Source of the DNA: Phycisphaeraceae bacterium | GTDB lineage: Bacteria; Planctomycetota; Phycisphaerae; Phycisphaerales; UBA1924 | Direction of reading: 5' to 3' | DNA: 64,000 nt | Assembly: GCA_019454185.1 (NCBI GenBank) | Contig: CP075368.1 | Span: 2,955,649 to 3,019,648 of the forward strand | Shown: positions 6,798 to 49,469 of the stretch, piece by piece | Numbering within the stretch: position 1 is the first letter of the stretch | How the letters are laid out: the number at the start of each line of letters is the position of its first letter | Translations under genes and position numbers: made by a program | Notes under the pieces: model-generated | Seen by the model: the letters and a program-made list of their open reading frames with translations, nothing else | Database searches by the model: none | What the model was told of the DNA's origin: nothing

Positions 6798-6908
6798 CCG
6801 TACAACCGCACCTACACAGAGACTTCACGCATCTCAATCACATTCGCCCGATCGCGCTCTTCAGCACGAAGTTCTGCTGGCCACCGACACCCCAAAGGGA
6901 GCCCCGGG

Positions 6909-7890
6909 CGCGAGAGCTTTTTGCGTCATCGCTTCATTGCCTGTGTGTGTCGATCAAGGATGATGATGGCTTGGATCCATCGACGGACCCGCTCGATGCC
7001 GCGCACGTGCGGCGGGATAAGCCCCACATGGTGGGTCATTTCCAGGCGTGCAAACACACGCTCGATCACGCGCCGGAGTGACAGCAGGCCCCTGCCGAAG
7101 CCCGTCATGCTCTGCTCCAGCATGTCGATGGCTCGACGGCGGTCCGGATGCGTTCCGGACCGCCGCACGCCGCGACCCACGCGGCAGTCCTTCCGCGGAA
7201 CCACCAGTTGTCCGCCCTTGCACGCGCAGAGTTCATAGAGCTTCACGCTGTCGTAGTTCGAGTCGGCCAGCACATACCCGTTCAACTCCATGTCTCGCAT
7301 CATCCGCTTGGCCATCACTGCTTCATGGCAGTGCATGGGCGTGAGACGCCAGGAGACGATCGAGCCCGCGAGATCGCAGATCGCATGGAGCTTGTAGCCG
7401 CGCAGTCCCCATGCGCCGAAGGTCGCGGTCCGGTCTCCGGAGTGCGAGGCGACGCGCAGGGCCTTGCCGTCAAGAGCCAGCACCAACGCTCCCGATGCAG
7501 AGACCAGATTCTCCGCCTCCGCCGCGGCAAGTAACGCCTGGACGCTGGTGGTTCTCAGCCGCCGGCTCATCCTGCTTGGCGAGGGCAATCGACCACGCCG
7601 CCACAACGGCCATGCATCGCGTCGGCACGCCCAGGAGGTGGGTCGTCGGTGCAAGACGGCCCAGAGAAAGGTCAGCACGATGTCCGCATCGGTGAAGGTG
7701 AAGCGACCGCCACGCGGGCTCCGATCCAGCTTCCGCACGCTCGCCGCCAACACCCTCCAACTCGCGTTGTCCATGCTCGGTCTCCTGTCTGGCAGCTCCA
7801 CCAGTGGGACCGAGCATGGCATGAGCCATCAGATCGCGCAAGTCTCCACAATGGAAACCCTTGGAACACATGGCGCAAAATGCTCGCGAG
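6909..7890 (-). mobile_element. 970-bp insertion sequence, copy 1, with 6-bp target duplication
   Basis: The element proper is 6915-7884. Its ends are imperfect inverted repeats, AGCTTTTTGCGTCAT and (from the other side) AGCATTTTGCGCCAT. It is flanked by CGCGAG direct repeats at 6909-6914 and 7885-7890. Removing the element and one CGCGAG leaves CCCCGGGC-GCGA-GCCCGGGG, a perfect stem-loop. The copy at 25084-26053 has the same length, the same encoded transposase and the same flanks, but the opposite orientation relative to the flanks. The family (IS4/IS5/IS982-like DDE) is not settled. Confidence 0.88.
6926..7774 (-). CDS. DDE transposase of the 970-bp insertion sequence (copy 1)
   Basis: A 282-residue DDE-type transposase. 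The likely catalytic acids are in VLALDGKALR, in VLADSNYDS and in the C-terminal RRVIERVFARLEM, the spacing of the IS4/IS5-like DDE_Tnp_1 fold. The start at 7774 is chosen by an AGGAG about ten bases upstream; an in-frame extension to 7822 runs towards the inverted repeat. It encodes the same protein, residue for residue, as the second copy, so both look recent and intact. The transposase spans nearly the whole element. Confidence 0.88.
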   Translation of the reverse strand: MDNASWRVLAASVRKLDRSPRGGRFTFTDADIVLTFLWAVLHRRPTSWACRRDAWPLWRRGRLPSPSRMSRRLRTTSVQALLAAAEAENLVSASGALVLALDGKALRVASHSGDRTATFGAWGLRGYKLHAICDLAGSIVSWRLTPMHCHEAVMAKRMMRDMELNGYVLADSNYDSVKLYELCACKGGQLVVPRKDCRVGRGVRRSGTHPDRRRAIDMLEQSMTGFGRGLLSLRRVIERVFARLEMTHHVGLIPPHVRGIERVRRWIQAIIILDRHTQAMKR

Positions 7891-8160
7891 CCCGGGGTGT
7901 TGCGTCTCCGCATCACCGCTACCTCACCCAATCTCACTCACATTCACCCGATCGCTAATCGCTCTTCCGCGCGAAGTGCCGCTGACGACCGATGCTCTCG
8001 CTTCCGACGCTGCGGAGCAGCGAGCGATGGTTGCCAGACGCGAGGCGCGGCCCGAAGGGCCCGCCGCTGCGTCTGGTACAAAGCCCCCGCGCAGCGCATC
8101 CTTAGAACGCCTTCGAGTCGCCGGAGGCGACTGAACTCTCCCCGGGGGGGTGCGGAGGGG
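7891..8160. repeat. Mosaic interspersed repeats
   Basis: Right flank of the insertion sequence. It holds a copy of the unit with TCCGACGCTGCGGAGCAGCG (hairpin CGCTGC/GCAGCG, around 8000) and a copy of the CGCGCAGCGCATCC unit (around 8085), followed by a GTCGCCGGAGGCGAC hairpin. The same units recur at 9845-10280, 26085-26230, 29390-29645 and 29810-29960. No gene is seen between here and 8265. Confidence 0.75.
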
Positions 8161-8264
8161 CAAGTGGGGGGCCGTGCCACACATCCTGCATCCACGTCCC
8201 ACCTCATACACCTCGACACTCATCGCGACGCCTCACCCACGCCGCGTGGTAGCATGTTCCTCGA

Positions 8265-9056
8265 ATGACCGATCAGCAGCCCCTCCCACCCACACCTCAC
8301 GATGCCACCGCGTCCCCATCGCTGGCGCGCCGCCTGCTCTCGCCCGAGAATGTCGCGGGCGCCATCTCTCTCTGCGCCGCTCTCGGCGCATTCTGGTACA
8401 TCCGCGCAGTGCACCCGTGGATCACTCCCCTCCTCGCCCCGCTCTTGATCGGTGCATACATCGTGCTCCATTTGATCCAGCGCCGCGCAACTCGGCGCCT
8501 CTACCGCGAAGCAGCGTCCACGGGCTTCCGCCGCTGCACAAGCTGCCTCCATGATCTCTCAGGCCTCGCCGACGAAGGCATTTGTCCGGAATGCGGCGCC
8601 GCATACGAACTCGCGTCGCTCGAGCACGCCTGGAAGCTCGCGGCACACGTCCCCACACGCATCGAGGGCGAGGTCTACCGCCCACTCTCAAGATTCCGCA
8701 GCGCCCGCCGCATCCCTTTCACCGCGACCCTGACATCTCTTGTCATTCTCATCGCCGGTGTCGCTTCGCTCATCCTCCGCTCCCGGAACGGTCTCGTCGA
8801 GCATCGCGATCTTGTGATCCTGCTGTTCGCCCTCATCCCGCTCGCGCCCGCGGCTCTCTTGTCTTTCGTGCGGAACGACCTCGCATACCTTCTTCGCCTG
8901 CGATTCCGCGTCTGCCCCCGTTGCCACATGCCGCTCCCGAAGCGAAGCTCCTCGGGTGCGTGCGCCAACTGCCGCCTTCCATGGGACGCCAAGTGGCTTG
9001 AAGAGACCTGGCGCAAGGTGTACGCAAAGCCCGGGCAAGAAGGCGATGCGCCATGA
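8265..9056 (+). CDS. Membrane protein with two TM-pair/zinc-ribbon repeats
   Basis: A 263-residue protein of the same family as the genes at 4096-6161. A TM pair is followed by a ribbon (CTSCLHDLSG...CPECGAAY...LEHAW), a second TM pair and a final ribbon (CPRCHMPL...CANCRLPW...LEETW). It overlaps the next gene by four bases (ATGA), so the two are an operon. It is divergent from the other two family members across the insertion sequence and repeats. The function is unknown. Confidence 0.78.
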   Translation: MTDQQPLPPTPHDATASPSLARRLLSPENVAGAISLCAALGAFWYIRAVHPWITPLLAPLLIGAYIVLHLIQRRATRRLYREAASTGFRRCTSCLHDLSGLADEGICPECGAAYELASLEHAWKLAAHVPTRIEGEVYRPLSRFRSARRIPFTATLTSLVILIAGVASLILRSRNGLVEHRDLVILLFALIPLAPAALLSFVRNDLAYLLRLRFRVCPRCHMPLPKRSSSGACANCRLPWDAKWLEETWRKVYAKPGQEGDAP

Positions 9057-9817
9057 CCGACTCGCAGTCCATCCGCGACGCCTATTGGACCGACACGCTC
9101 TGGAAGCGTCGATCACTCAGCGCACGCGTCACCAAGGTGGGCGCATGGTTCTTTGCACTCCCGCTTGTCCTCTCGTGGATCATCCTTCCAATCGTGCGTG
9201 GCGGCTGGATTGGCGTCGCGGTCTCGCTCCTTCTCATTGCCGCGGTGCTTGGCGTGGGGCATCTGATGGAACGCCCCAAACGCTGTGCCGCCCAGCGACT
9301 GGTCCACGCACGAACTAACCAGTACCGCATCTGCCCCTGCGGCTACGACCTCGCCGGTTCGTCGATCGAAGGGCTCTGCCCCGAATGCGGCAAGCAGTAC
9401 AACCCGCAATCACTGAAGGAGCACTGGGAGGGCGGCACCTACGAACAAGTCATCGCCAAGACCTGGCCACCCATCGGCGAACGCCGCATGTGGCGTGCGC
9501 TCAAGTGGTGGCAACTCGCAACCATCCTCGCCGTGCCAGGCTCATTCTTCCTGATCCCATCGACCCTGCCGCGCGGGGGCACGATCCTAGCGATCGCCTT
9601 TCTCGCCGCCGCCGTCTCTCTCCTCCTCTACATCCTCCGCGGCCACGTCTTCGAGTGGCGAGCCCTCGCGCGTCAGCGCTTCCGTCGCTGTCCCTGCTGC
9701 CTCCGCTCACTCCGTACCGCACCAGACACGGGCGCCTGCCCCAACTGCCGCATCGAGTACACTCCCGATTGGCTCGAACGCACGTGGGCACTCATCTACC
9801 GAAAGCCCGGCGCGTGA
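9053..9817 (+). CDS. Membrane protein with two TM-pair/zinc-ribbon repeats (odd first ribbon)
   Basis: A 254-residue paralogue coupled to the preceding gene. The layout is TM pair, ribbon, TM pair, ribbon (CPCCLRSL...CPNCRIEY...LERTW). The first ribbon reads ICPCGYDLAG...CPECGKQY. Its first knuckle has CxC instead of CxxC, apparently through loss of one residue, so zinc binding there may be altered. The family resemblance is otherwise clear. The substrate or partner is unknown. Confidence 0.78.
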   Translation: MTDSQSIRDAYWTDTLWKRRSLSARVTKVGAWFFALPLVLSWIILPIVRGGWIGVAVSLLLIAAVLGVGHLMERPKRCAAQRLVHARTNQYRICPCGYDLAGSSIEGLCPECGKQYNPQSLKEHWEGGTYEQVIAKTWPPIGERRMWRALKWWQLATILAVPGSFFLIPSTLPRGGTILAIAFLAAAVSLLLYILRGHVFEWRALARQRFRRCPCCLRSLRTAPDTGACPNCRIEYTPDWLERTWALIYRKPGA

Positions 9818-9844
9818 TCAGCAAGTGCGAGCAGCAACAGGCGA

Positions 9845-10280
9845 TGCGACATCCCCGCGCAGCGGCATCCATAAAACGCCTTCCCTCTTTGGTGGCACCG
9901 CTCTCCAGAGCGGTGTGCCTCGAAACGCCTTTCCGTCGCTGAAGGCGACGCGGCCTCGCGCCTTCAAGGCTCAAGGGGCCGCCAAGAGCCGAAGCCCAGG
10001 GCAAGTGAGTGCCGAAGGCACGAAGTGCCGCTGACCACCGACGCTCTCACTTCCGACGCTGCGGAGCAGCGAGCGTTCCTTGCCAGACCCAAGGCGCACC
10101 GCGCCCCCCACACGGCGTCGCCGCAGGGTCTTGTACAGTCCCCCGCGCAGCGCATCCTTATAACGCCTTCCCTCTTCGGTGGCACCGCTCTCCAGAGCGG
10201 TGTGCCTCGAAACGCCTTTCCGTCGCCGGAGGCGACTGAACTCTCCTCGCGGAGATGCGGCGTGGCAAGTGGGGGGCCGC
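9845..10280. repeat. Mosaic interspersed repeats with two hairpin elements
   Basis: Between two convergent genes. It holds two CGCGCAGCGCATCC units (about 9855 and 10140), each followed by the hairpin ACCGCTCTCCAGAGCGGT (9897-9914 and 10184-10201), and one TCCGACGCTGCGGAGCAGCG unit (about 10050). It also holds GTCGCC/GGCGAC-type hairpins. The two halves resemble each other, which suggests partial tandem duplication. No gene is seen. Confidence 0.8.
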
Positions 10281-11639: not shown

Positions 11640-11735
11640 CCCTGCCTCGCTGCCTTGCTGCCTTCCTGACTTCGTGCCTTGTGCCTTGTGCCTTCGTGCC
11701 TTCGTGCCTTCGTGCCTTCGTGCCTTTGCCCCTTC
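11640..11735. repeat. Octamer microsatellite upstream of the aminopeptidase gene
   Basis: About ten imperfect tandem copies of TGCCTTCG-like units on the + strand, between the stop of the sulfotransferase gene and the aminopeptidase start. The same motif recurs at about 17148-17170 before the ABC ATPase gene. Confidence 0.7.
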
Positions 11736-11737
11736 CC

Positions 11738-12553
11738 CTACACCGGATGCCCATACCCCAGCCGCTTGATCACCACCTGATAATCCGCGTTCTTCGCAAA
11801 CTTCGCGATCAGCGAAGGAACCACCTCGCGACGACCCATCGGGCGGATCGTCCTCCCCTCCAGCCCGCGGCTTGAAACCACATCCCCCGTGATCGTCGCG
11901 TAATCAGCCCACCGCTCCTTGTACGTCGCATCAAACTCCACACCCAATGCCGCGCACATCCGCGCCATCTCCACATCCGGGTTCCTCGTGAAATCCTCGT
12001 ACCGGATCACGACCTCCGGGAGGCACTTCTCGACAAACTCCCGATACCCGCGCAGGTAGTGCTCAAGATTCAGACACCCCTTCATGATCGGAAGCGCCGA
12101 AAGACTCATCCACTGATCGATCGGATGCCGCACCGTCGCGACCCGCACCAGCTCCGCCACCGGCGCAAGATGCTCGACGTTCATCGCGCGCATCGGCGCC
12201 CGCGCCAGAAACGGCGGCCCGTAGAAGTCGATGTGCTCCCACGACCGGATCACGAGCGTCAGCCCCTTCCGCTCCGCACGCTCGCGGATCAGCAGCATCA
12301 GCTCCGCGTACCCCATCGTCGACTCGCCCAGCCGCGCCACATCCTCCGGCGAGAAGAGCCCGAACCACTCGTTCGCCTGCCCGAACGGATTGATGTACCG
12401 CGCCCCCAGCGGATGGATCTCGGACAAGAGACACACACCCCGCATGCACCCGAGACACCGACCGATCATCGTCGATCCCGACCTCGCCAGGTTGTGCCAC
12501 AGCCGCAGCGTCGGACGCGCCCCCGGACCAGATTCATCCCGATGCTCACTCAT
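11738..12553 (-). CDS. Sulfotransferase-family protein
   Basis: A 271-residue protein with features of PAPS-dependent sulfotransferases. The 5'-phosphosulfate-binding loop is LARSGSTMIGRCL near residue 24 and the 3'-phosphate-binding motif is VRHPIDQWMSLSAL. It ends in a helical region. It would move sulfate from PAPS to a sugar, peptide or lipid acceptor that cannot be predicted. The ATG at 12553 is chosen because the domain begins just after it; there is no clear Shine-Dalgarno. It is divergent from the SEFIR-KAP gene and upstream of the aminopeptidase gene. Confidence 0.72.
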   Translation of the reverse strand: MSEHRDESGPGARPTLRLWHNLARSGSTMIGRCLGCMRGVCLLSEIHPLGARYINPFGQANEWFGLFSPEDVARLGESTMGYAELMLLIRERAERKGLTLVIRSWEHIDFYGPPFLARAPMRAMNVEHLAPVAELVRVATVRHPIDQWMSLSALPIMKGCLNLEHYLRGYREFVEKCLPEVVIRYEDFTRNPDVEMARMCAALGVEFDATYKERWADYATITGDVVSSRGLEGRTIRPMGRREVVPSLIAKFAKNADYQVVIKRLGYGHPV

Positions 12554-16429: not shown

Positions 16430-16439
16430 TCACCATCTC

Positions 16440-16510
16440 GCACCCACCACCCACCACATCACTTCATCTGCCATCTGGCTATTTGCCATTTGCTATCTGC
16501 GATCTGCCTC
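16440..16510. repeat. CTTCATCTGCCATCTGG repeat, partly coding
   Basis: A cluster of ATCTGCCATTTGC-like units between convergent genes, running into the 3' end of the DciA-like gene. The same units recur, in the same orientation, at 29720-29770 and 30030-30140, and in reverse orientation at 33649-33840. Confidence 0.65.
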
Positions 16511-17047: not shown

Positions 17048-17192
17048 CTCGCCCCTTGCGGACTTCACACCCCGCCAACCCCACACGCCGCGTCCGATCG
17101 TCTATTCTTCGCGTCCTGCCGCCTCCGCTCTTCCCTCTTCCCCGCTCGTGCCTTCGTGCCTCCGTGCCTTCTCCCTCAGCCCCTTCCCCCCC

Positions 17193-24899: not shown

Positions 24900-25077
24900 G
24901 TCGCCCTCGAAGTCGCCGCCCGTCGCGACTTCGACGCTGACATCCCTGCCCCACCAAACAACTTCTCCGCCCGAAGGGCGCACCATCGTTGCCGCCCGCG
25001 CCGGCATCTGGTCAACGCGCCGCGATGCCGCCCCGAGAACGCCAACCAACAACCGACACCCCAAAGGGAGCCCCGGG
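24900..25077. repeat. Partial mosaic repeats left of the second insertion sequence
   Basis: Contains about 85 bp matching the beginning of the long dispersed repeats at 6240 and 28905, then the ACACCCCAAAGGGAGCCCC sequence also found directly left of the first insertion sequence. Nothing gene-like is seen between 24682 and the insertion sequence. Confidence 0.65.
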
Positions 25078-26059
25078 CGCGAGAGCATTTTGCGCCATGT
25101 GTTCCAAGGGTTTCCATTGTGGAGACTTGCGCGATCTGATGGCTCATGCCATGCTCGGTCCCACTGGTGGAGCTGCCAGACAGGAGACCGAGCATGGACA
25201 ACGCGAGTTGGAGGGTGTTGGCGGCGAGCGTGCGGAAGCTGGATCGGAGCCCGCGTGGCGGTCGCTTCACCTTCACCGATGCGGACATCGTGCTGACCTT
25301 TCTCTGGGCCGTCTTGCACCGACGACCCACCTCCTGGGCGTGCCGACGCGATGCATGGCCGTTGTGGCGGCGTGGTCGATTGCCCTCGCCAAGCAGGATG
25401 AGCCGGCGGCTGAGAACCACCAGCGTCCAGGCGTTACTTGCCGCGGCGGAGGCGGAGAATCTGGTCTCTGCATCGGGAGCGTTGGTGCTGGCTCTTGACG
25501 GCAAGGCCCTGCGCGTCGCCTCGCACTCCGGAGACCGGACCGCGACCTTCGGCGCATGGGGACTGCGCGGCTACAAGCTCCATGCGATCTGCGATCTCGC
25601 GGGCTCGATCGTCTCCTGGCGTCTCACGCCCATGCACTGCCATGAAGCAGTGATGGCCAAGCGGATGATGCGAGACATGGAGTTGAACGGGTATGTGCTG
25701 GCCGACTCGAACTACGACAGCGTGAAGCTCTATGAACTCTGCGCGTGCAAGGGCGGACAACTGGTGGTTCCGCGGAAGGACTGCCGCGTGGGTCGCGGCG
25801 TGCGGCGGTCCGGAACGCATCCGGACCGCCGTCGAGCCATCGACATGCTGGAGCAGAGCATGACGGGCTTCGGCAGGGGCCTGCTGTCACTCCGGCGCGT
25901 GATCGAGCGTGTGTTTGCACGCCTGGAAATGACCCACCATGTGGGGCTTATCCCGCCGCACGTGCGCGGCATCGAGCGGGTCCGTCGATGGATCCAAGCC
26001 ATCATCATCCTTGATCGACACACACAGGCAATGAAGCGATGACGCAAAAAGCTCGCGAG
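25078..26059 (+). mobile_element. 970-bp insertion sequence, copy 2, with 6-bp target duplication
   Basis: The element proper is 25084-26053, flanked by CGCGAG at 25078-25083 and 26054-26059. Terminal inverted repeats are as in copy 1. The outer flanks (AGGGAGCCCCGGG on the left, CCCGGGGTG on the right) match those of copy 1 on the same strand, while the element itself is reversed. The two copies are therefore separate insertions into equivalent palindromic sites, or one has inverted within its site. Confidence 0.88.
25194..26042 (+). CDS. DDE transposase of the 970-bp insertion sequence (copy 2)
   Basis: The predicted protein is the same, residue for residue, as that of copy 1 (282 residues from the AGGAG-supported ATG). 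It contains the same DDE motifs (ALDGKALR, LADSNYDS, RVIERVFARLE). Identity of both copies indicates recent movement and probable activity. Confidence 0.88.
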   Translation: MDNASWRVLAASVRKLDRSPRGGRFTFTDADIVLTFLWAVLHRRPTSWACRRDAWPLWRRGRLPSPSRMSRRLRTTSVQALLAAAEAENLVSASGALVLALDGKALRVASHSGDRTATFGAWGLRGYKLHAICDLAGSIVSWRLTPMHCHEAVMAKRMMRDMELNGYVLADSNYDSVKLYELCACKGGQLVVPRKDCRVGRGVRRSGTHPDRRRAIDMLEQSMTGFGRGLLSLRRVIERVFARLEMTHHVGLIPPHVRGIERVRRWIQAIIILDRHTQAMKR

Positions 26060-26084
26060 CCCGGGGTGCTGCGTCTCCGCACCG

Positions 26085-26230
26085 CCGCGACTTCACGCAT
26101 CTCAATCACATTCGATCAATCGCTGAAGCACTCTTCCGCACGAGGCGCCGCTGACCACCGACACCCTCACCTCCGACGCTGCGGAGCAGCGACCAATTGT
26201 TGCCATGCACGCCGACGTCTGGTCAACTCA
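26085..26230. repeat. Mosaic interspersed repeats right of the second insertion sequence
   Basis: Holds the CTTCACGCATCTCAATCACA unit and one TCCGACGCTGCGGAGCAGCG unit in the same order as beside the first insertion sequence. This shows that both elements sit in the same repeat context. It reaches the stop of the propeller/dockerin gene. Confidence 0.7.
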
Positions 26231-29386: not shown

Positions 29387-30133
29387 CTCCGCATCACCGC
29401 GGCCTCACCCACTCTCACTCACATTCGATCAAGCGCTGAAGCGCTCTTCATCACATAGTCCCGCACCAACACCCTCACCTCCGACGCTGCGGAGCAGCGA
29501 GCGACGGTTGCCACACCCAAGGCGCACGCCGCCCCCCACGCGGCGGTCGCCGCAGGGTCTGGTACAAACCCCCGCGCAGCGCATCCTTTGAACGCCTCTG
29601 AGTCGCGCACGAGCCCGCAGGGCGAGGAGCGACTGAACTCTCTTCCGCCCTCCCGATCCGCGGCAGCCCCACTCTTCATCCACCCCCGCGCCTTCTACCC
29701 CCTCCGCCCCTCTGCCCCTCTCCCCACTTCATCTGCCATCTGGCCATTTGCTATCTGGCCATCTGCCTCCACGCCTTCCCCCTTCGCCCCCACTCTTCAA
29801 CACGATGCTCAACAGGCCACCGACACGCTCACTTCCGACGCTGCGAAGCAGCTACGACCGTTGCCGGTGGCGCAGCGAGGTCGCCCCTGCGACCGAGCCA
29901 GCCACCGGTAAAGCCATCCGCGCAGCGCATCCTTGGTGGAGCGGGGCGGAGGCCCCCGACTCAAAATCCTCCCTCTGCCCCTCTGCCCCTCTGCCCCTCT
30001 GTCCCTCTGTCCCCCTGCCCCTCTCCCCACTTCATCTGCCATCTGGCCATTTGCCATTTGCTATCTGGCCATCCCCCTCCGCCCCTATGCCGCCCTCCCC
30101 CACTTCATCTGCCATGTCGCTATTTGCTATGTG
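29387..30133. repeat. Mosaic interspersed repeats, gene-free
   Basis: Contains two TCCGACGCTGCGNAGCAGC units (about 29475 and 29830), two CGCGCAGCGCATCC units (about 29570 and 29915), CCTCTGCCCCTCTG tandem units, and three clusters of CTTCATCTGCCATCTGG (29725-29770, 30030-30080, 30100-30140). No coding signature was found in either strand; long open frames here are repeat read-through. Confidence 0.75.
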
Positions 30134-32216: not shown

Positions 32217-33548
32217 ATGAGCCAGAAGGGATCGGATGCGGGCAAGCAGGGTGGTGCGCGGCGGCTGGGTCGGGGGCTGTCGAGCTTGATCGGGCCTGCG
32301 CCGGTGCGGGTCGATGTGCCGCCCGGGACGCCGATATTAGATTCTGAACGTCAGTATGGCGATATTACATATTCTCATATAGATATCAGTGACGGGAGCA
32401 AGAGGGGCGATGCGCGGGAGGGCGAAGGGGGCCATGGGCAACCCTCGACGGCGATGGGCGATGGGGGGGCGGAGGGCAATAGGCAATGGGCATCGGGCAA
32501 TGGCGGGGAGGGTGTGGGGGGTGTGGTGGGGGGTGTGGATTCGGAGCGGGTGTTGATGGTGTCGGTGGGTGAGATTGTGCCGAGCCGGTTCCAGCCGCGG
32601 CAGGTGTTTGATGAGGTGAAGCTGCGCGAGCTGGCGGAGTCGATCCGTTCGATCGGGTTGATGCAGCCGGTGATCGTGAGAAGAACGGAAGGGGCAGAGG
32701 GGCAAAGGGGCAAAGGGACAGAGGGAGAGGACACGAAGAGTGAGAACACCAAGAGCGAGGACACCGCTCTGGAGAGCGGTGCCACCAGGAGCGAGGACAC
32801 GAAGAGCGAAGACACCGCTCTGGAGAGCGGTGCCACCAGGAGCGGTGCCACCAAGAGCGAGGACACCCGGAGCGGGTACGAGTTGGTGGCGGGTGAGCGT
32901 CGGTGGCGAGCGGCGGCGATGGCGGGTCTTGAGCGTGTGCCGGTGATTGTGCGTGAGTTGGATGACGAGGCGTGCGCGACGTGGGGTCTGGTTGAGAATC
33001 TTCAGCGTGAGGATCTGGATCCGATCGAGAAGGGTGAGGCGTGCCGCGTGATGATCGAGCGGTTCGGGATGTCGCCTCAGGGTTTGTCGGAGCGTCTTGG
33101 TGTTGATCGCTCGACGATCGTGAACATGGTGAGGTTGACGGAGTTGGAGCCGTCGATCCAGCGTCTGGTGCGTGCGGGTGATCTGACGATGGGGCACGCG
33201 CGTTCGCTGCTGTCGGTGCCGCGTGAGAGCGGGGCGCGGCTGGCGCTGGCGACGCTTGTGAGCGTCGAGGGGTGGAGCGTTCGCAAGTTGGAGCAGGAGG
33301 TGAAGAAGGTCGCGAAGGGGAAGCCGGTGGCGGCCGGGCGCGGCGCGGCGGGAGTGGGGGGGGGAGTGGTTGGGGCGGAGCGTTCGGCGTCGATCGCGGA
33401 TCTTGAGAAGCGATTGGGCGAGCACCTGGGCACGCGGGTGAAGATCAAGACGGATAAGTCGGGGAAGCGCGGGCGGATCGAGATGGCGTTCTTCGATCTC
33501 GATCACTTCGATGGGTTGATGCAGCGCGTGGGGTTTGGGGGGAAGTGA
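32217..33548 (+). CDS. parB: Chromosome-partitioning protein ParB with repeat-encoded insertion
   Basis: A 443-residue ParB/Spo0J homologue, a CTP-dependent DNA clamp that loads at parS. After RRLGRGLSSLIG comes a long spacer with an AT-rich patch (residues about 39-59), then the N-terminal domain (VGEIVPSRFQPRQVF). The CTP-binding core is interrupted after PVIVRR by ~65 residues (155-219) of repeat origin (two TALESGATR units), and resumes with YELVAGERRWRA. ENLQREDLDPIEKG, the helix-turn-helix LSERLGVDRSTIVNMVRL and the C-terminal dimer segment follow. The start at 32217 is the ATG before MSQKGS. No parA is in the window. Confidence 0.95.
   Translation: MSQKGSDAGKQGGARRLGRGLSSLIGPAPVRVDVPPGTPILDSERQYGDITYSHIDISDGSKRGDAREGEGGHGQPSTAMGDGGAEGNRQWASGNGGEGVGGVVGGVDSERVLMVSVGEIVPSRFQPRQVFDEVKLRELAESIRSIGLMQPVIVRRTEGAEGQRGKGTEGEDTKSENTKSEDTALESGATRSEDTKSEDTALESGATRSGATKSEDTRSGYELVAGERRWRAAAMAGLERVPVIVRELDDEACATWGLVENLQREDLDPIEKGEACRVMIERFGMSPQGLSERLGVDRSTIVNMVRLTELEPSIQRLVRAGDLTMGHARSLLSVPRESGARLALATLVSVEGWSVRKLEQEVKKVAKGKPVAAGRGAAGVGGGVVGAERSASIADLEKRLGEHLGTRVKIKTDKSGKRGRIEMAFFDLDHFDGLMQRVGFGGK
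32332..32392. other. AT-rich patch inside parB
   Basis: About 60 bp of strikingly AT-rich sequence in the spacer part of parB, using codons (ATA, TTA, TAT) that are rare in neighbouring genes. It holds two similar 14-16-bp units, CGATATTAGATTCT and CGATATTACATATTCT, 28 bp apart. It could be a protein-binding or unwinding element near the origin, or foreign sequence. Confidence 0.55.
32755..32850 (+). repeat. Two hairpin elements inside parB
   Basis: ACCGCTCTGGAGAGCGGT at 32763-32780 and 32814-32831, each followed by GCCACCAGGAGCG. This is the same element as at 9897, 10184, 47610 and 49034. Both keep the parB reading frame open and encode TALESGATR. Confidence 0.9.
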
Positions 33549-33554
33549 GGGAGG

Positions 33555-33840
33555 GGGCGGAGTGACGGAGTGACGAAGTGACGCAGTGACGGAGTGACGG
33601 AGTGACGAAGTGACGGAGAGAACGCGGAGGATGCGAGGGGCGGAGGGGGATGGCCAGATAGCACATGGCAAATGGCCAGATGGCAGATGAAGTGGGGAAA
33701 GGGGCAGAGGGGGATGGCCAGATGGCACATGGCAGATAGCCAGATGGCAGATGAAGTGGGGAGAGGGGCAGAGGGGGATGGCCAGATGGCACATGGCAGA
33801 TAGCCAGATGGCAGATGAAGTGGGGAGAGGGGCAGAGGGG
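33555..33840. repeat. Tandem repeats between parB and the Type III operon
   Basis: 33555-33615 holds about seven GTGACGRA octamers. 33649-33840 holds three 64-bp tandem copies of a unit containing GCCAGATGGCAGATGAAG and GGGGCAGAGGG. The unit is the reverse complement of the CTTCATCTGCCATCTGG clusters left of the skew switch. Units are contiguous without spacers, so this is not CRISPR. No gene lies in 33549-33925. Confidence 0.85.
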
Positions 33841-33925
33841 AAAGGGGCAGAGGGGTGCGGAGAGGGATATCGTGGAACGCGAAGGTCGCTCAGAAGGGCT
33901 TTGCCACGGAGGGTGCTGAGGACAC

Positions 33926-46477: not shown

Positions 46478-47539
46478 CTATTCGGCGGCATGCGAAGGGG
46501 GCGAGCGTGTTGCCACGACGGTGAACTTGACAGGAACTGACACGAGCCGTTCGACAGACACGGGCTCTACGAGGTCCCAAGTTGCCTTGTCGAATCCCTC
46601 GCCGAAGCGCACGCGAATGACAAGCGTGCCGCGTTGCTCTGATGGCGGGAGATGCGGAATCGCAACATCGACCGGCAAGCGCACCATCAGCCCCATGTGC
46701 GGGGCGATAGGAAACGGAGTGCTTCGCGCAACGAGGCGATCGCCGTTCTCGAGAATGAGGACCTGCGGCTCAACAATGGCGGTGAGGCCGCGGGTCTCGT
46801 GCTCGCCTTTCTGTGTCAGCACCCCGCTTCCGGCACGAAAGATGGCCGAGACCATCCAGCGAAGCGGTTCGCCGGGTTCCACGGGGTCGTGAGGCATCGG
46901 GACCAGGGCGACAGAGTTTGACGCGTATGTTGCCCATGCGTCATCGCCGACCTGACCTGCGGCGCGGGCACCTTCGATGATGTCCCCCATGTGCTCGGTC
47001 CACATGGCGTCTGGATCAGCGTTGACATGGAGCAGTGCCTGCACTGCGCGATGGTGTGACCCACTCGCGAACCTGCGCAACCGAATGCGATGAAGGATCT
47101 CCTGAGCGACTAGCTTGCTACGTGCCGCGTTCGGCGAATCCACCATCTCCGCCAGCACCCAGTCGGGCATCCAGGTGGTCCACGGGAACTTGGCGAGGGG
47201 TTTGTAGGAGAGCCAGAAGCCGGTGGTGAGGCCGGAGAGGAGGAGGGCGAGGCCGAGGGCGAGGACGGGCCAGCGTTTGCGCCGTTCGCCGTTGATGACG
47301 GCGCGGCGTGCGCGGCGGGTGTTTCCGGTCAGTTCTGTGCCGCACTCGGGGCAGCGGTCGGGGTGCGAGGTGGCATCTGCGTTTGATCCTGCCAGCCCAA
47401 CCAGATCGAAGCGGCACCTGCGGCAGATGGGGTGGTCGTTGACGCGTCGGCCTCGGAGTCCGGCGCGGATGAGGAGGATGCCGCCGATGACGAGGGGGAT
47501 CCAGACGATGATGTGTTGGAGGATGGCGAGCGGGGTCAT
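46478..47539 (-). CDS. Membrane zinc-ribbon protein, tandem paralogue 1
   Basis: A 353-residue protein. An N-terminal helix (ILQHIIVWIPLVIGGILLI) is followed by a zinc ribbon (CRRCRFDLVG...CPECGTEL), a second helix (LALGLALLLSGLTTGFWLS) and a large extracytoplasmic region with no recognised domain. The start at 47539 has GGGGAGG upstream. Its first ~135 residues and its upstream DNA are nearly identical to the next gene, but the rest has diverged. It resembles the ribbons of the 4096-9817 cluster in the CxxC...CPECG pattern. The function is unknown. Confidence 0.75.
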   Translation of the reverse strand: MTPLAILQHIIVWIPLVIGGILLIRAGLRGRRVNDHPICRRCRFDLVGLAGSNADATSHPDRCPECGTELTGNTRRARRAVINGERRKRWPVLALGLALLLSGLTTGFWLSYKPLAKFPWTTWMPDWVLAEMVDSPNAARSKLVAQEILHRIRLRRFASGSHHRAVQALLHVNADPDAMWTEHMGDIIEGARAAGQVGDDAWATYASNSVALVPMPHDPVEPGEPLRWMVSAIFRAGSGVLTQKGEHETRGLTAIVEPQVLILENGDRLVARSTPFPIAPHMGLMVRLPVDVAIPHLPPSEQRGTLVIRVRFGEGFDKATWDLVEPVSVERLVSVPVKFTVVATRSPPSHAAE

Positions 47540-47609
47540 GGCGTGGCCTCCCCGGAGCGGCGCTCCGTCAGCAGGTACGCATGATACTGAGAAGGGATGT
47601 GAGGGGAAC

Positions 47610-47627
47610 ACCGCTCTGGAGAGGGGT
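47610..47627 (+). repeat. Hairpin element between the two zinc-ribbon paralogues
   Basis: ACCGCTCTGGAGAGGGGT, one mismatch from the element seen in parB, followed by GCCACCAGGAGCGGTGCC. Confidence 0.85.
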
Positions 47628-47668
47628 GCCACCAGGAGCGGTGCCGCCAAGGCCTCGGTTGGACCAAG

Positions 47669-49228
47669 CTACTCGTTCTCGTCGGGAATCTCGTCTTCGT
47701 CGGCGCGGGGGGTGTCGGAAGGTTTGATGATGGTGATGGGGACATCTTTGATCGTGATCGAGTCTCCCCATATTTCCGCGATGTCGACGCGATGCTTGGC
47801 CAGGTCGGGATTGGGCGTGAGGATGATGGTCGCGAGCGGGGGAAGGGGCTCGTGGATCGGGCTCATGAGCGGATCGGCGTCGAAAAGGCCGTGGATGATG
47901 TGGCCCTTCATGGCATCGCCGACCATGCGGCCCATAGGGATGGCTCGTTCGCCGAGGCGCATCGTGACCTCGAAGGCGTAGGGGAGCGGAGGGGATCGGG
48001 CATCGATGTGGAGGCGGATGCGTTCGTCGATTCCTTCCTGGTTGCCGCGAGCGGCTTCGGGCGGGTCGGGCTTGATCTCGAGGAGCGAGACGACGAACGC
48101 TCGTTCGACCGCTTCGCGTTGGGACTCGTCGACGGAGCCCGCGATCTGCGTTGAATCGACGACCTCGAAGGCGATGGGGATCTCGACATCCTGCACGTAG
48201 ATCGCAGCGGGCGGGCTGTTCGTCAGGTGCGTGTCCATGTTCTCGTGGCCGGAGAGGCGGACGAGGAACGTGATCTCGTGGCGGCCGGGCGGAAGACCGT
48301 GCTCGAATGCGCCTGTGTTCGACGTGGATGAGTTTGACACGAAACGGGACCAGCTGCCCCCGTCGGACAGCTCGCGGTACGAGCCGCCCGGCATCACGAG
48401 GGCGTGCTTCGAGGACTTCAGGTTCAACACGAACTCCGGCTTTCCGGCGCGGGCGTGGCCGAGCCCGTTGCCCGTGCGTCCGAACATGACCACTGTCTCC
48501 CATGCCAGACGCTCGTCTTTCCCGACGCGCGGGCGAACCCGGGCCGTGGCGGTAAAGGAACGCTGGATGTATGCGCTCATCGCATCGTCGCTCACCACAC
48601 CGTTCGCGCGGGCCCGTTCGACGATGTCGCCCATCACGGGGGACCAAAGGACGTTCGGATCTGCCTGCGCGGCGAGGATCGAGCTGATTGTGCGGTCGGT
48701 CGAGGATGCGCTGAAGCGGTTGTTCTGGAGTCGGAGCATGATCTCTCGTCCGACTGTGGCTCCGCGGGTGGAGTGTGGCGAGTCGATCATCGCGGCCAGC
48801 ACCCAGTCGGGCATCCAGGTGGTCCACGGGAACTTGGCGAGGGGTTTGTAGGAAAGCCAGAAGCCGGTGGTCAGGCCGGAGAGGAGGAGCACGAGACCGA
48901 GGGCGAAGAGGCGCCAGCGTTTGCGCCGTTCGCCGTTGATGACGGCGCGGCGTGCGCGGCGGGTGTTTCCGGTCAGTTCTGTGCCGCACTCGGGGCAGCG
49001 GTCGGGGTGGCTGGTGGGCTGGTATTTGGTGGCACCGCTCTCCAGAGCGGTGTCTGGCGTGTCGGCGACAGATGCCGCGCCGAGTCCGACGAGATCGAAG
49101 CGGCACCTGCGGCAGATGGGGTGGTCGTTGACGCGTCGGCCTCGGAGTCCGGCGCGGATGAGGAGGATGCCGCCGATGACGAGGGGAAGCCAGACGATGA
49201 TGTGTTGGAGGATGGCGAGCGGGGTCAT
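47669..49228 (-). CDS. Membrane zinc-ribbon protein, tandem paralogue 2, with hairpin-element insertion
   Basis: A 519-residue paralogue of the gene just downstream. The order is TM helix, zinc ribbon, TM helix, then a long extracytoplasmic part (repeated beta-strand-like segments, for example GRHEITFLVRLSGHENMD). Inside the ribbon, between CRRCRFDLVGL and SHPDRCPECG, it has extra residues including DTALESGATK that the paralogue lacks; these are encoded by the interspersed hairpin element. The start at 49228 has GGGGAGG. The function is unknown. Confidence 0.75.
   Translation of the reverse strand: MTPLAILQHIIVWLPLVIGGILLIRAGLRGRRVNDHPICRRCRFDLVGLGAASVADTPDTALESGATKYQPTSHPDRCPECGTELTGNTRRARRAVINGERRKRWRLFALGLVLLLSGLTTGFWLSYKPLAKFPWTTWMPDWVLAAMIDSPHSTRGATVGREIMLRLQNNRFSASSTDRTISSILAAQADPNVLWSPVMGDIVERARANGVVSDDAMSAYIQRSFTATARVRPRVGKDERLAWETVVMFGRTGNGLGHARAGKPEFVLNLKSSKHALVMPGGSYRELSDGGSWSRFVSNSSTSNTGAFEHGLPPGRHEITFLVRLSGHENMDTHLTNSPPAAIYVQDVEIPIAFEVVDSTQIAGSVDESQREAVERAFVVSLLEIKPDPPEAARGNQEGIDERIRLHIDARSPPLPYAFEVTMRLGERAIPMGRMVGDAMKGHIIHGLFDADPLMSPIHEPLPPLATIILTPNPDLAKHRVDIAEIWGDSITIKDVPITIIKPSDTPRADEDEIPDENE
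49034..49051 (-). repeat. Hairpin element inside the zinc-ribbon paralogue 2 gene
   Basis: ACCGCTCTCCAGAGCGGT on the + strand. It keeps the minus-strand frame and encodes TALESGAT. Confidence 0.9.
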
Positions 49229-49429
49229 GGCGTGGCCTCCCCGGAGGGGCGCTCCGTCAGCATGTACGCATGATACTGAGAAGGGGTGCGGGGCCTCGGG
49301 CGAAGACGGACTCACCACAGAGGCGCGGAGAACACAGAGGAAGGAGGAGCAGGCGAGACAGTGGGGCCCGAATGGACCTACGAATAGTGGCGCCGAGAAG
49401 AGGCGTATGGATGGCGACGAGCCGGGCAC

Positions 49430-49450
49430 ACCGCTCCTGAGAGCAATGCC
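49430..49450. repeat. Degenerate hairpin element just upstream of lysS
   Basis: ACCGCTCCTGAGAGCAATGCC, an eroded copy of the hairpin element, 20 bp before the lysS start. Confidence 0.55.
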
Positions 49451-49469
49451 ACCCCAGAGGAAGACGCAT

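Follow-up and report, generated by a model that had tools for sequence, protein, structure and literature searches.

The accessible part of Di Nocera et al. (2013, PMC3733652) describes GTAG REPs, a variant GTGG foot in O. terrae, REPs lying within ORFs, including those of tRNA synthetases, and REPtrons. RAYTs have been defined as being flanked by inverted REPs (Nunvar et al. 2010, PMC2817692, in the text available), binding and cleavage of REPs, with a guide role for the foot, were shown in work of which a part is accessible (PMC8266576), and REPs in frame inside tnpA_REP genes of subclass 2.4 are described in the available portion of a further paper (PMC6006769). In-frame solo REPs are already known. 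No report of a RAYT inside a housekeeping protein was found in the parts of these papers considered here or among the titles and abstract openings of the literature matches listed. Inteins and homing elements are examples of parasites that live inside essential genes and must not break their frame. The window, i.e. the whole stretch of 64 kb analysed here, holds a hairpin of the REP kind inside a zinc-ribbon gene, and below we compare this hairpin, its copies and the transposase associated with it with these systems.

The hairpin element and its zinc-ribbon host gene

Read on the plus strand, the hairpin in the zinc-ribbon gene (TGGTGGCACCGCTCTCCAGAGCGGTGTCT, Table 1) has a GTGG foot at 49029-49032 and a palindrome at 49033-49052, the whole being GTGG followed by CACCGCTCT-CC-AGAGCGGTG, a perfect 9-bp stem with a 2-nt loop. 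A GT(A/G)G tetranucleotide 5' of a short palindrome is the arrangement of a REP. Rickettsia palindromic elements are marked by a CGTC tag and the apparent lack of a dedicated transposase, while the foot here is GTGG and a RAYT is associated with it.

The original prediction placed a hairpin element inside the zinc-ribbon gene and noted that the tandem paralogue lacks it, and both statements are borne out: the element is read in frame on the minus strand as DTALESGATK, in the loop between the zinc knuckles, and the corresponding loop of the paralogue is free of it. A Pfam search of the 519-aa protein gave no family above the cut-off. The two paralogues were also taken for a direct before/after pair of an in-frame insertion, which we had to abandon because the loops (24 aa vs 9 aa) differ by 45 nt, more than the repeat of about 29 nt, and because their letters are unlike. 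Orthologues in two other genomes, G003 and G002, have 5-aa loops without the element and are cleaner empty sites than the paralogue. The orthologue in G001 has TPDTAPESGATK at the same place and in addition another hairpin, whose foot is GTAG and whose codon register is the same (judged by eye), so the insertion either predates the split of G001 and the genome of the window (G000) or was shared between them. One in-frame TGA lies within the G001 match, and that gene may therefore be broken. The earlier observation of a hairpin beside an uninterrupted paralogue is in this way partly confirmed, and as a solo REP that keeps the frame of a loop the hairpin of the zinc-ribbon gene is of an ordinary kind. 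As for the claim that the element has no stop codon in the relevant frames, its 27-mer is indeed open in all six, but the same holds for 8398 of 20000 random 27-mers of the G+C-rich window, and the openness of so short an element is therefore not special.

Table 1. Positions in the window of the zinc-ribbon genes, the parB gene and the copies of the hairpin element
Feature	Position	Strand	Basis
Host gene, 519-aa zinc-ribbon protein; element in loop between CRRC and CPEC knuckles	47669..49228	-	
Tandem paralogue, 353 aa, without element; 9-aa loop AGSNADATS	46478..47539	-	
REP in zinc-ribbon gene, peptide DTALESGAT	49027..49055	-	in-frame reading, copy search
One-mismatch copy in gap between the two paralogues	47608..47634	+	copy search
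Degenerate copy upstream of lysS, 83% complementary to the 9884-9919 copy	49425..49460	+	repeat comparison
parB (ParB_N, HTH_ParB, ParB_C), two copies in ParB_N loop	32454..33548	+	Pfam
Exact copy in frame in parB (TALESGAT register)	32761..32787	+	copy search
Second exact parB copy, 51 bp (17 codons) further, tandem duplicate, in frame	32812..32838	+	copy search
Exact copy between convergent genes	9890..9916	-	copy search
One-mismatch copy, same intergenic region as the 9890..9916 copy	10177..10203	-	copy search

Copy number and distribution

Six copies with 0-3 mismatches were found in the window, compared with none in 100 shuffles. G000, a single contig of 3.80 Mb, has 41 exact 20-mers and 58 copies of the 26-mer with at most three mismatches, and a control with the reversed pattern gave 0. 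The exact 20-mer occurs in four of 101 genomes, all of one genus (41 in G000, 11 in G001, 2 in G002 and 31 in G003), and with a 24-mer and up to two mismatches the counts for the last three are 26, 8 and 42. Fifteen of the 58 copies in G000 lie in genes and 43 outside called genes, while called genes make up 81% of the window (binomial value for so few genic copies 3e-19, which takes the coding share of the window for the whole genome and the copies as independent). Because of this strong depletion we regard the solo element as mainly extragenic, and many dispersed, mostly extragenic copies are a further trait of REPs. Genes were called with a strong/weak codon-position model, which misses the zinc-ribbon gene and calls other frames over it; the copy in that gene was counted as genic by hand, from homologues.

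Some copies stand in tandem arrays (the 51-bp unit of parB, arrays in G003), as would be expected if slippage or recombination had produced ordinary repeats unrelated to any RAYT. We hold such an origin to be highly improbable, as it does not account for dispersed exact copies, for a foot and palindrome with lineage-specific stems at the bounds of many RAYTs (see below), or for the finding that in the four genomes copy number follows the RAYT unit, which among these is present in the valS gene of G000 and G003 only.

Several other repeats were observed. In parB, 51-bp (17-codon) tandem repeats at 32721-32873 include the two REP copies, and in G003 copies of the element have similar spacings of 51 bp and 72 bp. 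Repeats of 8 bp of the TTCGTGCC kind and a related one lie at 11656-11739, 17146-17183 and 33550-33629; similar peptides (EGTKARRHEGTK) are in frame in valS and cysS of the genus, so that a second type of repeat may sit in coding loops. Dispersed and tandem repeats of 58-83 nt with the motif CATCTGCCATCTGGCCATTTGC occur in both orientations (16435-16492, 29700-30133, 33635-33845), and a hairpin-like family of 65-80 nt is built around CCGACGCTGCGGAGCAGCGAG (7960-10097, 26129-26217, 29437-29855). A perfect inverted repeat of 996 nt (6902-7897 and 25071-26066), with a 291-aa frame in each arm, looks like two opposite copies of an insertion sequence.

Codon register and position of copies within genes

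The coding copies were surveyed and their frames counted, as the original prediction had proposed. Fourteen of the 15 in-gene copies in G000 share one codon register, with a codon boundary in the foot (GT|GG), the exception being in cysS, and the shared peptides are TALESGAT on one strand and GGTALQSG on the other. These 15 copies stand for fewer events (three are in E2, the parB pair is a tandem duplicate and the two in valS terminate a single unit), the gene call of one host (L023) is weak and lacks support from Pfam, and the copy in serA lies at residue 11 of a gene whose true start is unsure. From G001-G003, 34 distinct copies of 76 were examined in 26 of 30 fetched loci (36 places were counted, two copies falling in two overlapping loci). 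Nine are in credible genes, whose names, where new, were assigned by eye, and all nine have the same register; five more, in another register, fall in a low-scoring 93-aa frame over a tandem array that was not counted as a gene. Across the genomes, copies common by descent enter these counts more than once. Gene disruption was not seen in the copies surveyed, which is a weak sign since broken genes would escape gene calling.

Compared with Pfam domains, copies in genes are mostly at linkers or loops: between the pterin and B12 modules of metH, between the lipoyl, E3-binding and catalytic domains of E2, between the AAA lid and the second AAA domain of clpB and between the domains of sucD, while those of parB and of a carboxyltransferase are within a domain. 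With a GTAG foot, one of the other phases would place TAG in frame. In whole units the register is partly built in, because the RAYT and its ends share one frame; the single register of solo copies calls for either selection on the peptide or descent from units. The suggestion that the element is shaped to be tolerated in proteins is accordingly only partly supported, with the register and the placement in loops and linkers speaking for it, and the depletion from genes (15/58) and the commonness of chance openness against it. It fits much better the parent unit, REP-transposase-REP, whose frame is open over its whole length and which lies inside proteins.

A RAYT in frame inside valyl-tRNA synthetase

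The Y1_Tnp family has eight matches in G000, and the RAYT profile has one at E <= 1e-10, at 1774872-1775279, in an open frame of 1396 aa. Among the TIGR00422 matches listed this is the only G000 frame over the valS cut-off, and on the 1396-aa chain Pfam reports tRNA-synt_1, Anticodon_1, the ValRS C-terminal arm and Y1_Tnp (PF01797, over cut-off). In both G000 and G003 the RAYT of valS is bounded by inverted copies of the REP of the window, and REP, RAYT and REP form one open frame with no stop toward ValRS on either side. The same hairpin bounds the valS RAYT of G307, which belongs to another genus outside the 101 genomes, so an inverted pair bounding a RAYT, the third trait of a REP, is found in all three. 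A free-standing gene with its own start and stop, as RAYTs have, is not what valS of G000 and G003 contains, and by its sequence the insert appears to be a RAYT domain in an unusual setting and not a typical rayt gene. On the structure of Thermus thermophilus ValRS (1gax) the site of the insert lies between chain residues 363 and 377. We take the GTGG hairpin for a non-autonomous REP cognate to the RAYT (TnpA_REP) inside valS, where this RAYT sits in frame in ValRS between inverted REPs, the whole unit being one open frame joined on both sides; our explanation as a whole, set out in the Discussion, we consider quite probable.

That all eight Y1_Tnp matches in G000 are RAYTs was considered and dropped, as five others that were read as protein look IS200/IS605-like by eye. 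L063 and L065, which are on the opposite strand in their loci, were judged from near-identical DNA (L064 and L132) and likewise rejected as RAYTs. L063 and L064 (G000:C1:2314105-2317443 and 3095125-3098463) are duplicated regions around IS200-like genes, with a hairpin that has a GTAG or GGAG foot and the stem CCGCATCGTCC, and with degenerate copies of the GTGG element.

The valS units of G003 and G000 are identical over 212 aa and differ at 1 of 636 nt, while their flanks differ far more, so sharing through recombination or transfer and two separate insertions are equally likely. With one difference in 636 nt, purifying selection could not be argued from this pair and was rejected. G001 and G002 have short loops without insert at the site. 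In a census of valS loops an insert was found in 17 of 68 genomes, each time a whole RAYT in frame and of one of two unlike types (11 and 6). The 68 come from 71 genomes (G011 and G076 are not included and G083 ends before the loop), and the loops of G038, G062, G077 and G088 were judged by eye. The second type (VRSNHVHVVV...FKSYATR) occupies the same loop in L182, L185, L183, L209, L212 and L218 (genomes G067, G005, G040, G068, G071 and G086, respectively). Long loops without a RAYT (104-136 aa gap), some with short peptide repeats, were seen in L189, L187, L194 and L213 (G013, G033, G036 and G073).

Inserts recur at one site in valS and also in rdgB (see below), and this would agree with an intron or intein that is removed after transcription or translation and leaves a normal enzyme; self-removing elements favour such genes. 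However, host, REP sequences and RAYT are all read in a single frame, and no intein domain was reported by Pfam in 30 proteins (E up to 1e-3 or 1e-5), which makes removal of the insert, in our estimate, very unlikely.

Embedding in other hosts, genomes and phyla

In 301 genomes of the order, a RAYT profile made from ten domains of the first valS type gave 58 matches of at least about 95 bits, and for 51 of these a host that shares their frame was identified (valS 27, rdgB 12, leuS 10, kbl 1 and miaA 1; one of these valS and one of these rdgB are cut). Another six are free or unclear, and the flanks of the remaining one (L259) are masked; L263 and L264 are cut by contig ends. L259 carries the label 'leuS?' in the tree, but was counted as unclear since its masked flanks show no host. 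Matches below about 63 bits are mostly in frames of about 170-330 aa, like free genes. In rdgB the insertion point corresponds to a position between residues 133 and 146 of 6wwd.

A search of the phylum (392 genomes) found both free and embedded relatives, and the best 80 named loci in GTDB, some of them from the same genomes as the 301-genome matches, comprise 37 embedded (a few unsure), 39 free and 4 other. Pfam supports as hosts recG, ileS, alaS, purH, HSP70 (dnaK), gcvP, priA, DUF1156 and MmeI proteins, and an oxidoreductase is also a host; by motif, the recG host recurs in Verrucomicrobiota. Host labels rest partly on short motifs, L349 being unsure and L357 having host sequence on one side only, and L333 (archease) may be an end-to-end fusion instead of an embedding. 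Pfam itself gives Y1_Tnp in 8 of 20 proteins (E <= 1e-5), and the RAYT of the remainder comes from our own profile. Locus L334 (3825-7298) encodes a DUF1156 protein which has, besides an embedded RAYT, a GIY-YIG nuclease domain at residues 229-295.

An in-frame ATG within 45 codons upstream is present in 33 of 81 embedded domains as against 36 of 46 free ones, and with GTG and TTG allowed the figures are 67/81 and 44/46, so that embedded RAYTs may have internal start codons.

Fragmented assemblies are numerous among the genomes, and metagenomes are the source of most named records, from which one could suspect an artefact of assembly or binning. G000 is nevertheless one contig of 3.8 Mb, and in many genomes RAYTs that have diverged from each other, with their frames open, occupy the same host sites, so that we regard an artefact as extremely improbable.

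Conservation and descent of the embedded domains

The catalytic H-H-Y set is kept in 79 of 81 embedded domains (both His of the HuH motif in 81/81, Tyr in 79/81) and in all 46 free ones; these counts, made on alignment columns, replace those by regular expression (HuH 72 and Tyr 72 of 81). In the own clade of the G000 unit the HuH motif and the catalytic Tyr of the Y1 family, which are traits of a RAYT, are present in 18 of 18, and the aligned family matches the TnpA_REP structure 4er8 by sequence (E 8e-11). Eight embedded pairs were chosen for dN/dS, and the seven that were measurable gave 0.10-0.32 for the RAYT. The dS of the RAYT compared with that of the host upstream/downstream was 0.42 vs 0.35/0.57, 0.80 vs 0.90/1.27, 1.65 vs 1.59/2.11 and 0.82 vs 0.60/0.70, dS being near saturation in several pairs and values above 1 rough. 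Low dN/dS and a RAYT dS like that of the host indicate that in the pairs examined the unit seems to have descended together with the host gene under constraint at the protein level.

In a tree of 130 domains the host label changes 10 times for valS, 4 for rdgB, 5 for leuS and 4 for recG, of which the starred branches force 4, 3, 3 and 4, respectively; the tree has 142 columns and many unresolved forks, and leaves out domains below 110 bits, below 115 model positions, with X or identical. On this evidence hosts appear to have been switched repeatedly. GTRG hairpins were detected by a strict finder on both sides of 47 of 81 units, with the same codon phase of the foot in 43 of 52 ends on the left and 39 of 49 on the right.

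Plain survivorship would account for part of these results: units and REPs would insert anywhere and only in-frame insertions into loops would last in essential genes, with no adaptation to coding. This is in accordance with the depletion of solo copies from genes (15/58) and the position of the genic ones mostly in linkers or loops, and such tolerance was earlier proposed for intragenic REPs in the accessible part of PMC3733652. Survivorship alone, however, should leave many units intergenic, or out of frame in dispensable genes, whereas in the own clade (18 rows, support 100/92) none is free, 17 being in valS, leuS, kbl or miaA and one masked (L259), and of the 58 across the order 51 have an identified host whose frame they share. 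The persistence of catalytic residues and of a low dN/dS also speaks against it, and as a full explanation we find survivorship doubtful.

Purifying selection and co-inheritance with the hosts in the pairs examined could also mean that the embedded RAYT has been domesticated, i.e. kept for a job in the host enzyme or the cell such as DNA or tRNA handling, the more so as work on nucleic acids or nucleotides is common among the hosts (valS, leuS, ileS, alaS, miaA, recG, priA and rdgB). We think this unlikely: dnaK, gcvP, purH, kbl and an oxidoreductase are hosts too, the insert is missing from valS in 51 of 68 assessed relatives, host switches are many and cognate REPs are still found at many ends.

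An AlphaFold model of an RdgB-RAYT chain (399 aa, from a 33-row alignment with three rows covering RdgB) has a mean pLDDT of 77.6 and a pTM of 0.62, with values below 50 at residues 92-100, 150-171, 312-316, 336-351 and 353-359. In the model the insert springs from between two long strands. Compared by Foldseek and VIA-align, the model superposes on the HAM1 structure 3tqu with Z 18.6 (194 of 197 residues, 2.7 A) and its residues 167-314 on TnpA_REP 4er8 with Z 14.4 (139 residues, 2.7 A). According to the model, the HAM1 and TnpA_REP folds could coexist in one chain, which does not mean that they do, and the fold search speaks only for the families that it lists.

Discussion

The sequences show how the unit is built, that it is embedded in frame, that it recurs in many hosts and is missing from orthologues, and that its catalytic residues are intact and its dN/dS low; from here we infer how the unit may move and function. 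In the explanation that we prefer, a REP-transposase unit carried in frame by a host protein, the RAYT would be made as part of the ValRS chain and fold as a domain of its own. It would act on single-stranded REPs, scattering REPs and occasionally itself, and insertions would survive in intergenic DNA or, where they keep the frame of a gene, within its loops and linkers. The copy in the zinc-ribbon gene would then be a tolerated solo REP, and for the single register of copies in genes the best explanation is either that the mildest peptide has survived or that the copies descend from units in frame whose transposase was lost. An essential host gene would provide expression of the transposase, and mutations that break the frame or truncate the protein would be lethal to the host, so that in our opinion the unit persists in the essential gene.

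A more general proposal, which we put forward with about even confidence, is that this RAYT lineage no longer lives as a free gene and exists as an in-frame, non-splicing domain in loops of essential proteins (ValRS, LeuRS, RdgB and others), where the REP ends would serve both as transposon ends and as protein linkers. The host would express the transposase and essentiality would police its frame, the solo hairpins would be by-products, and similar embedding would have taken place in other phyla, for example in RecG of Verrucomicrobiota. That whole REP-transposase units should sit in frame in essential proteins, repeatedly and across phyla, is very surprising.

If this is true, an essential bacterial enzyme can carry a transposase as a lasting part of its own chain that is not spliced out, and parasites would have, beside inteins and self-splicing introns, a further way of living in an essential gene. 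ValRS, LeuRS, RdgB and RecG would then be natural experiments on large in-frame insertions, with insert-free orthologues for comparison. The findings bear on how REPs and their transposases move, since the host switches offer comparative evidence for movement of whole REPtrons, and annotators should take into account that these housekeeping proteins carry transposase domains.

Among known systems, inteins and homing elements are similar in the one respect that they live in essential genes whose frame they must keep, while here there is so far no sign of splicing and the insert seems to be retained in the protein. Palindromic repeats in frame in many unrelated proteins are a likeness to Rickettsia palindromic elements, which, in the available parts of the respective texts, are about 150 bp long (PMC10969869) and have a CGTC tag and apparently no dedicated transposase (PMC3733652), in contrast to the GTGG foot and RAYT described here. 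The REP insertions reported in the text available of PMC6006769 also preserve the frame inside a protein, but the host there is the transposase, whereas here the transposase is part of what is inserted, and unrelated housekeeping enzymes are the hosts. GTAG REPs, as the accessible part of PMC3733652 presents them, share with our element the foot with a short stem-loop and the dispersed, mostly extragenic distribution with some copies inside coding genes; the copies in genes described there are single, dimeric or grouped REPs and not whole REPtrons, while here the cognate transposase unit lies inside housekeeping genes. A further resemblance is to the REPtron/RAYT arrangement, a HuH-Tyr transposase between two inverted GT(A/G)G REPs, which in the portions seen of PMC2817692 and PMC8266576 is a gene of its own, whereas the RAYT described here lacks a stop codon and runs on at both ends into the protein of its host.
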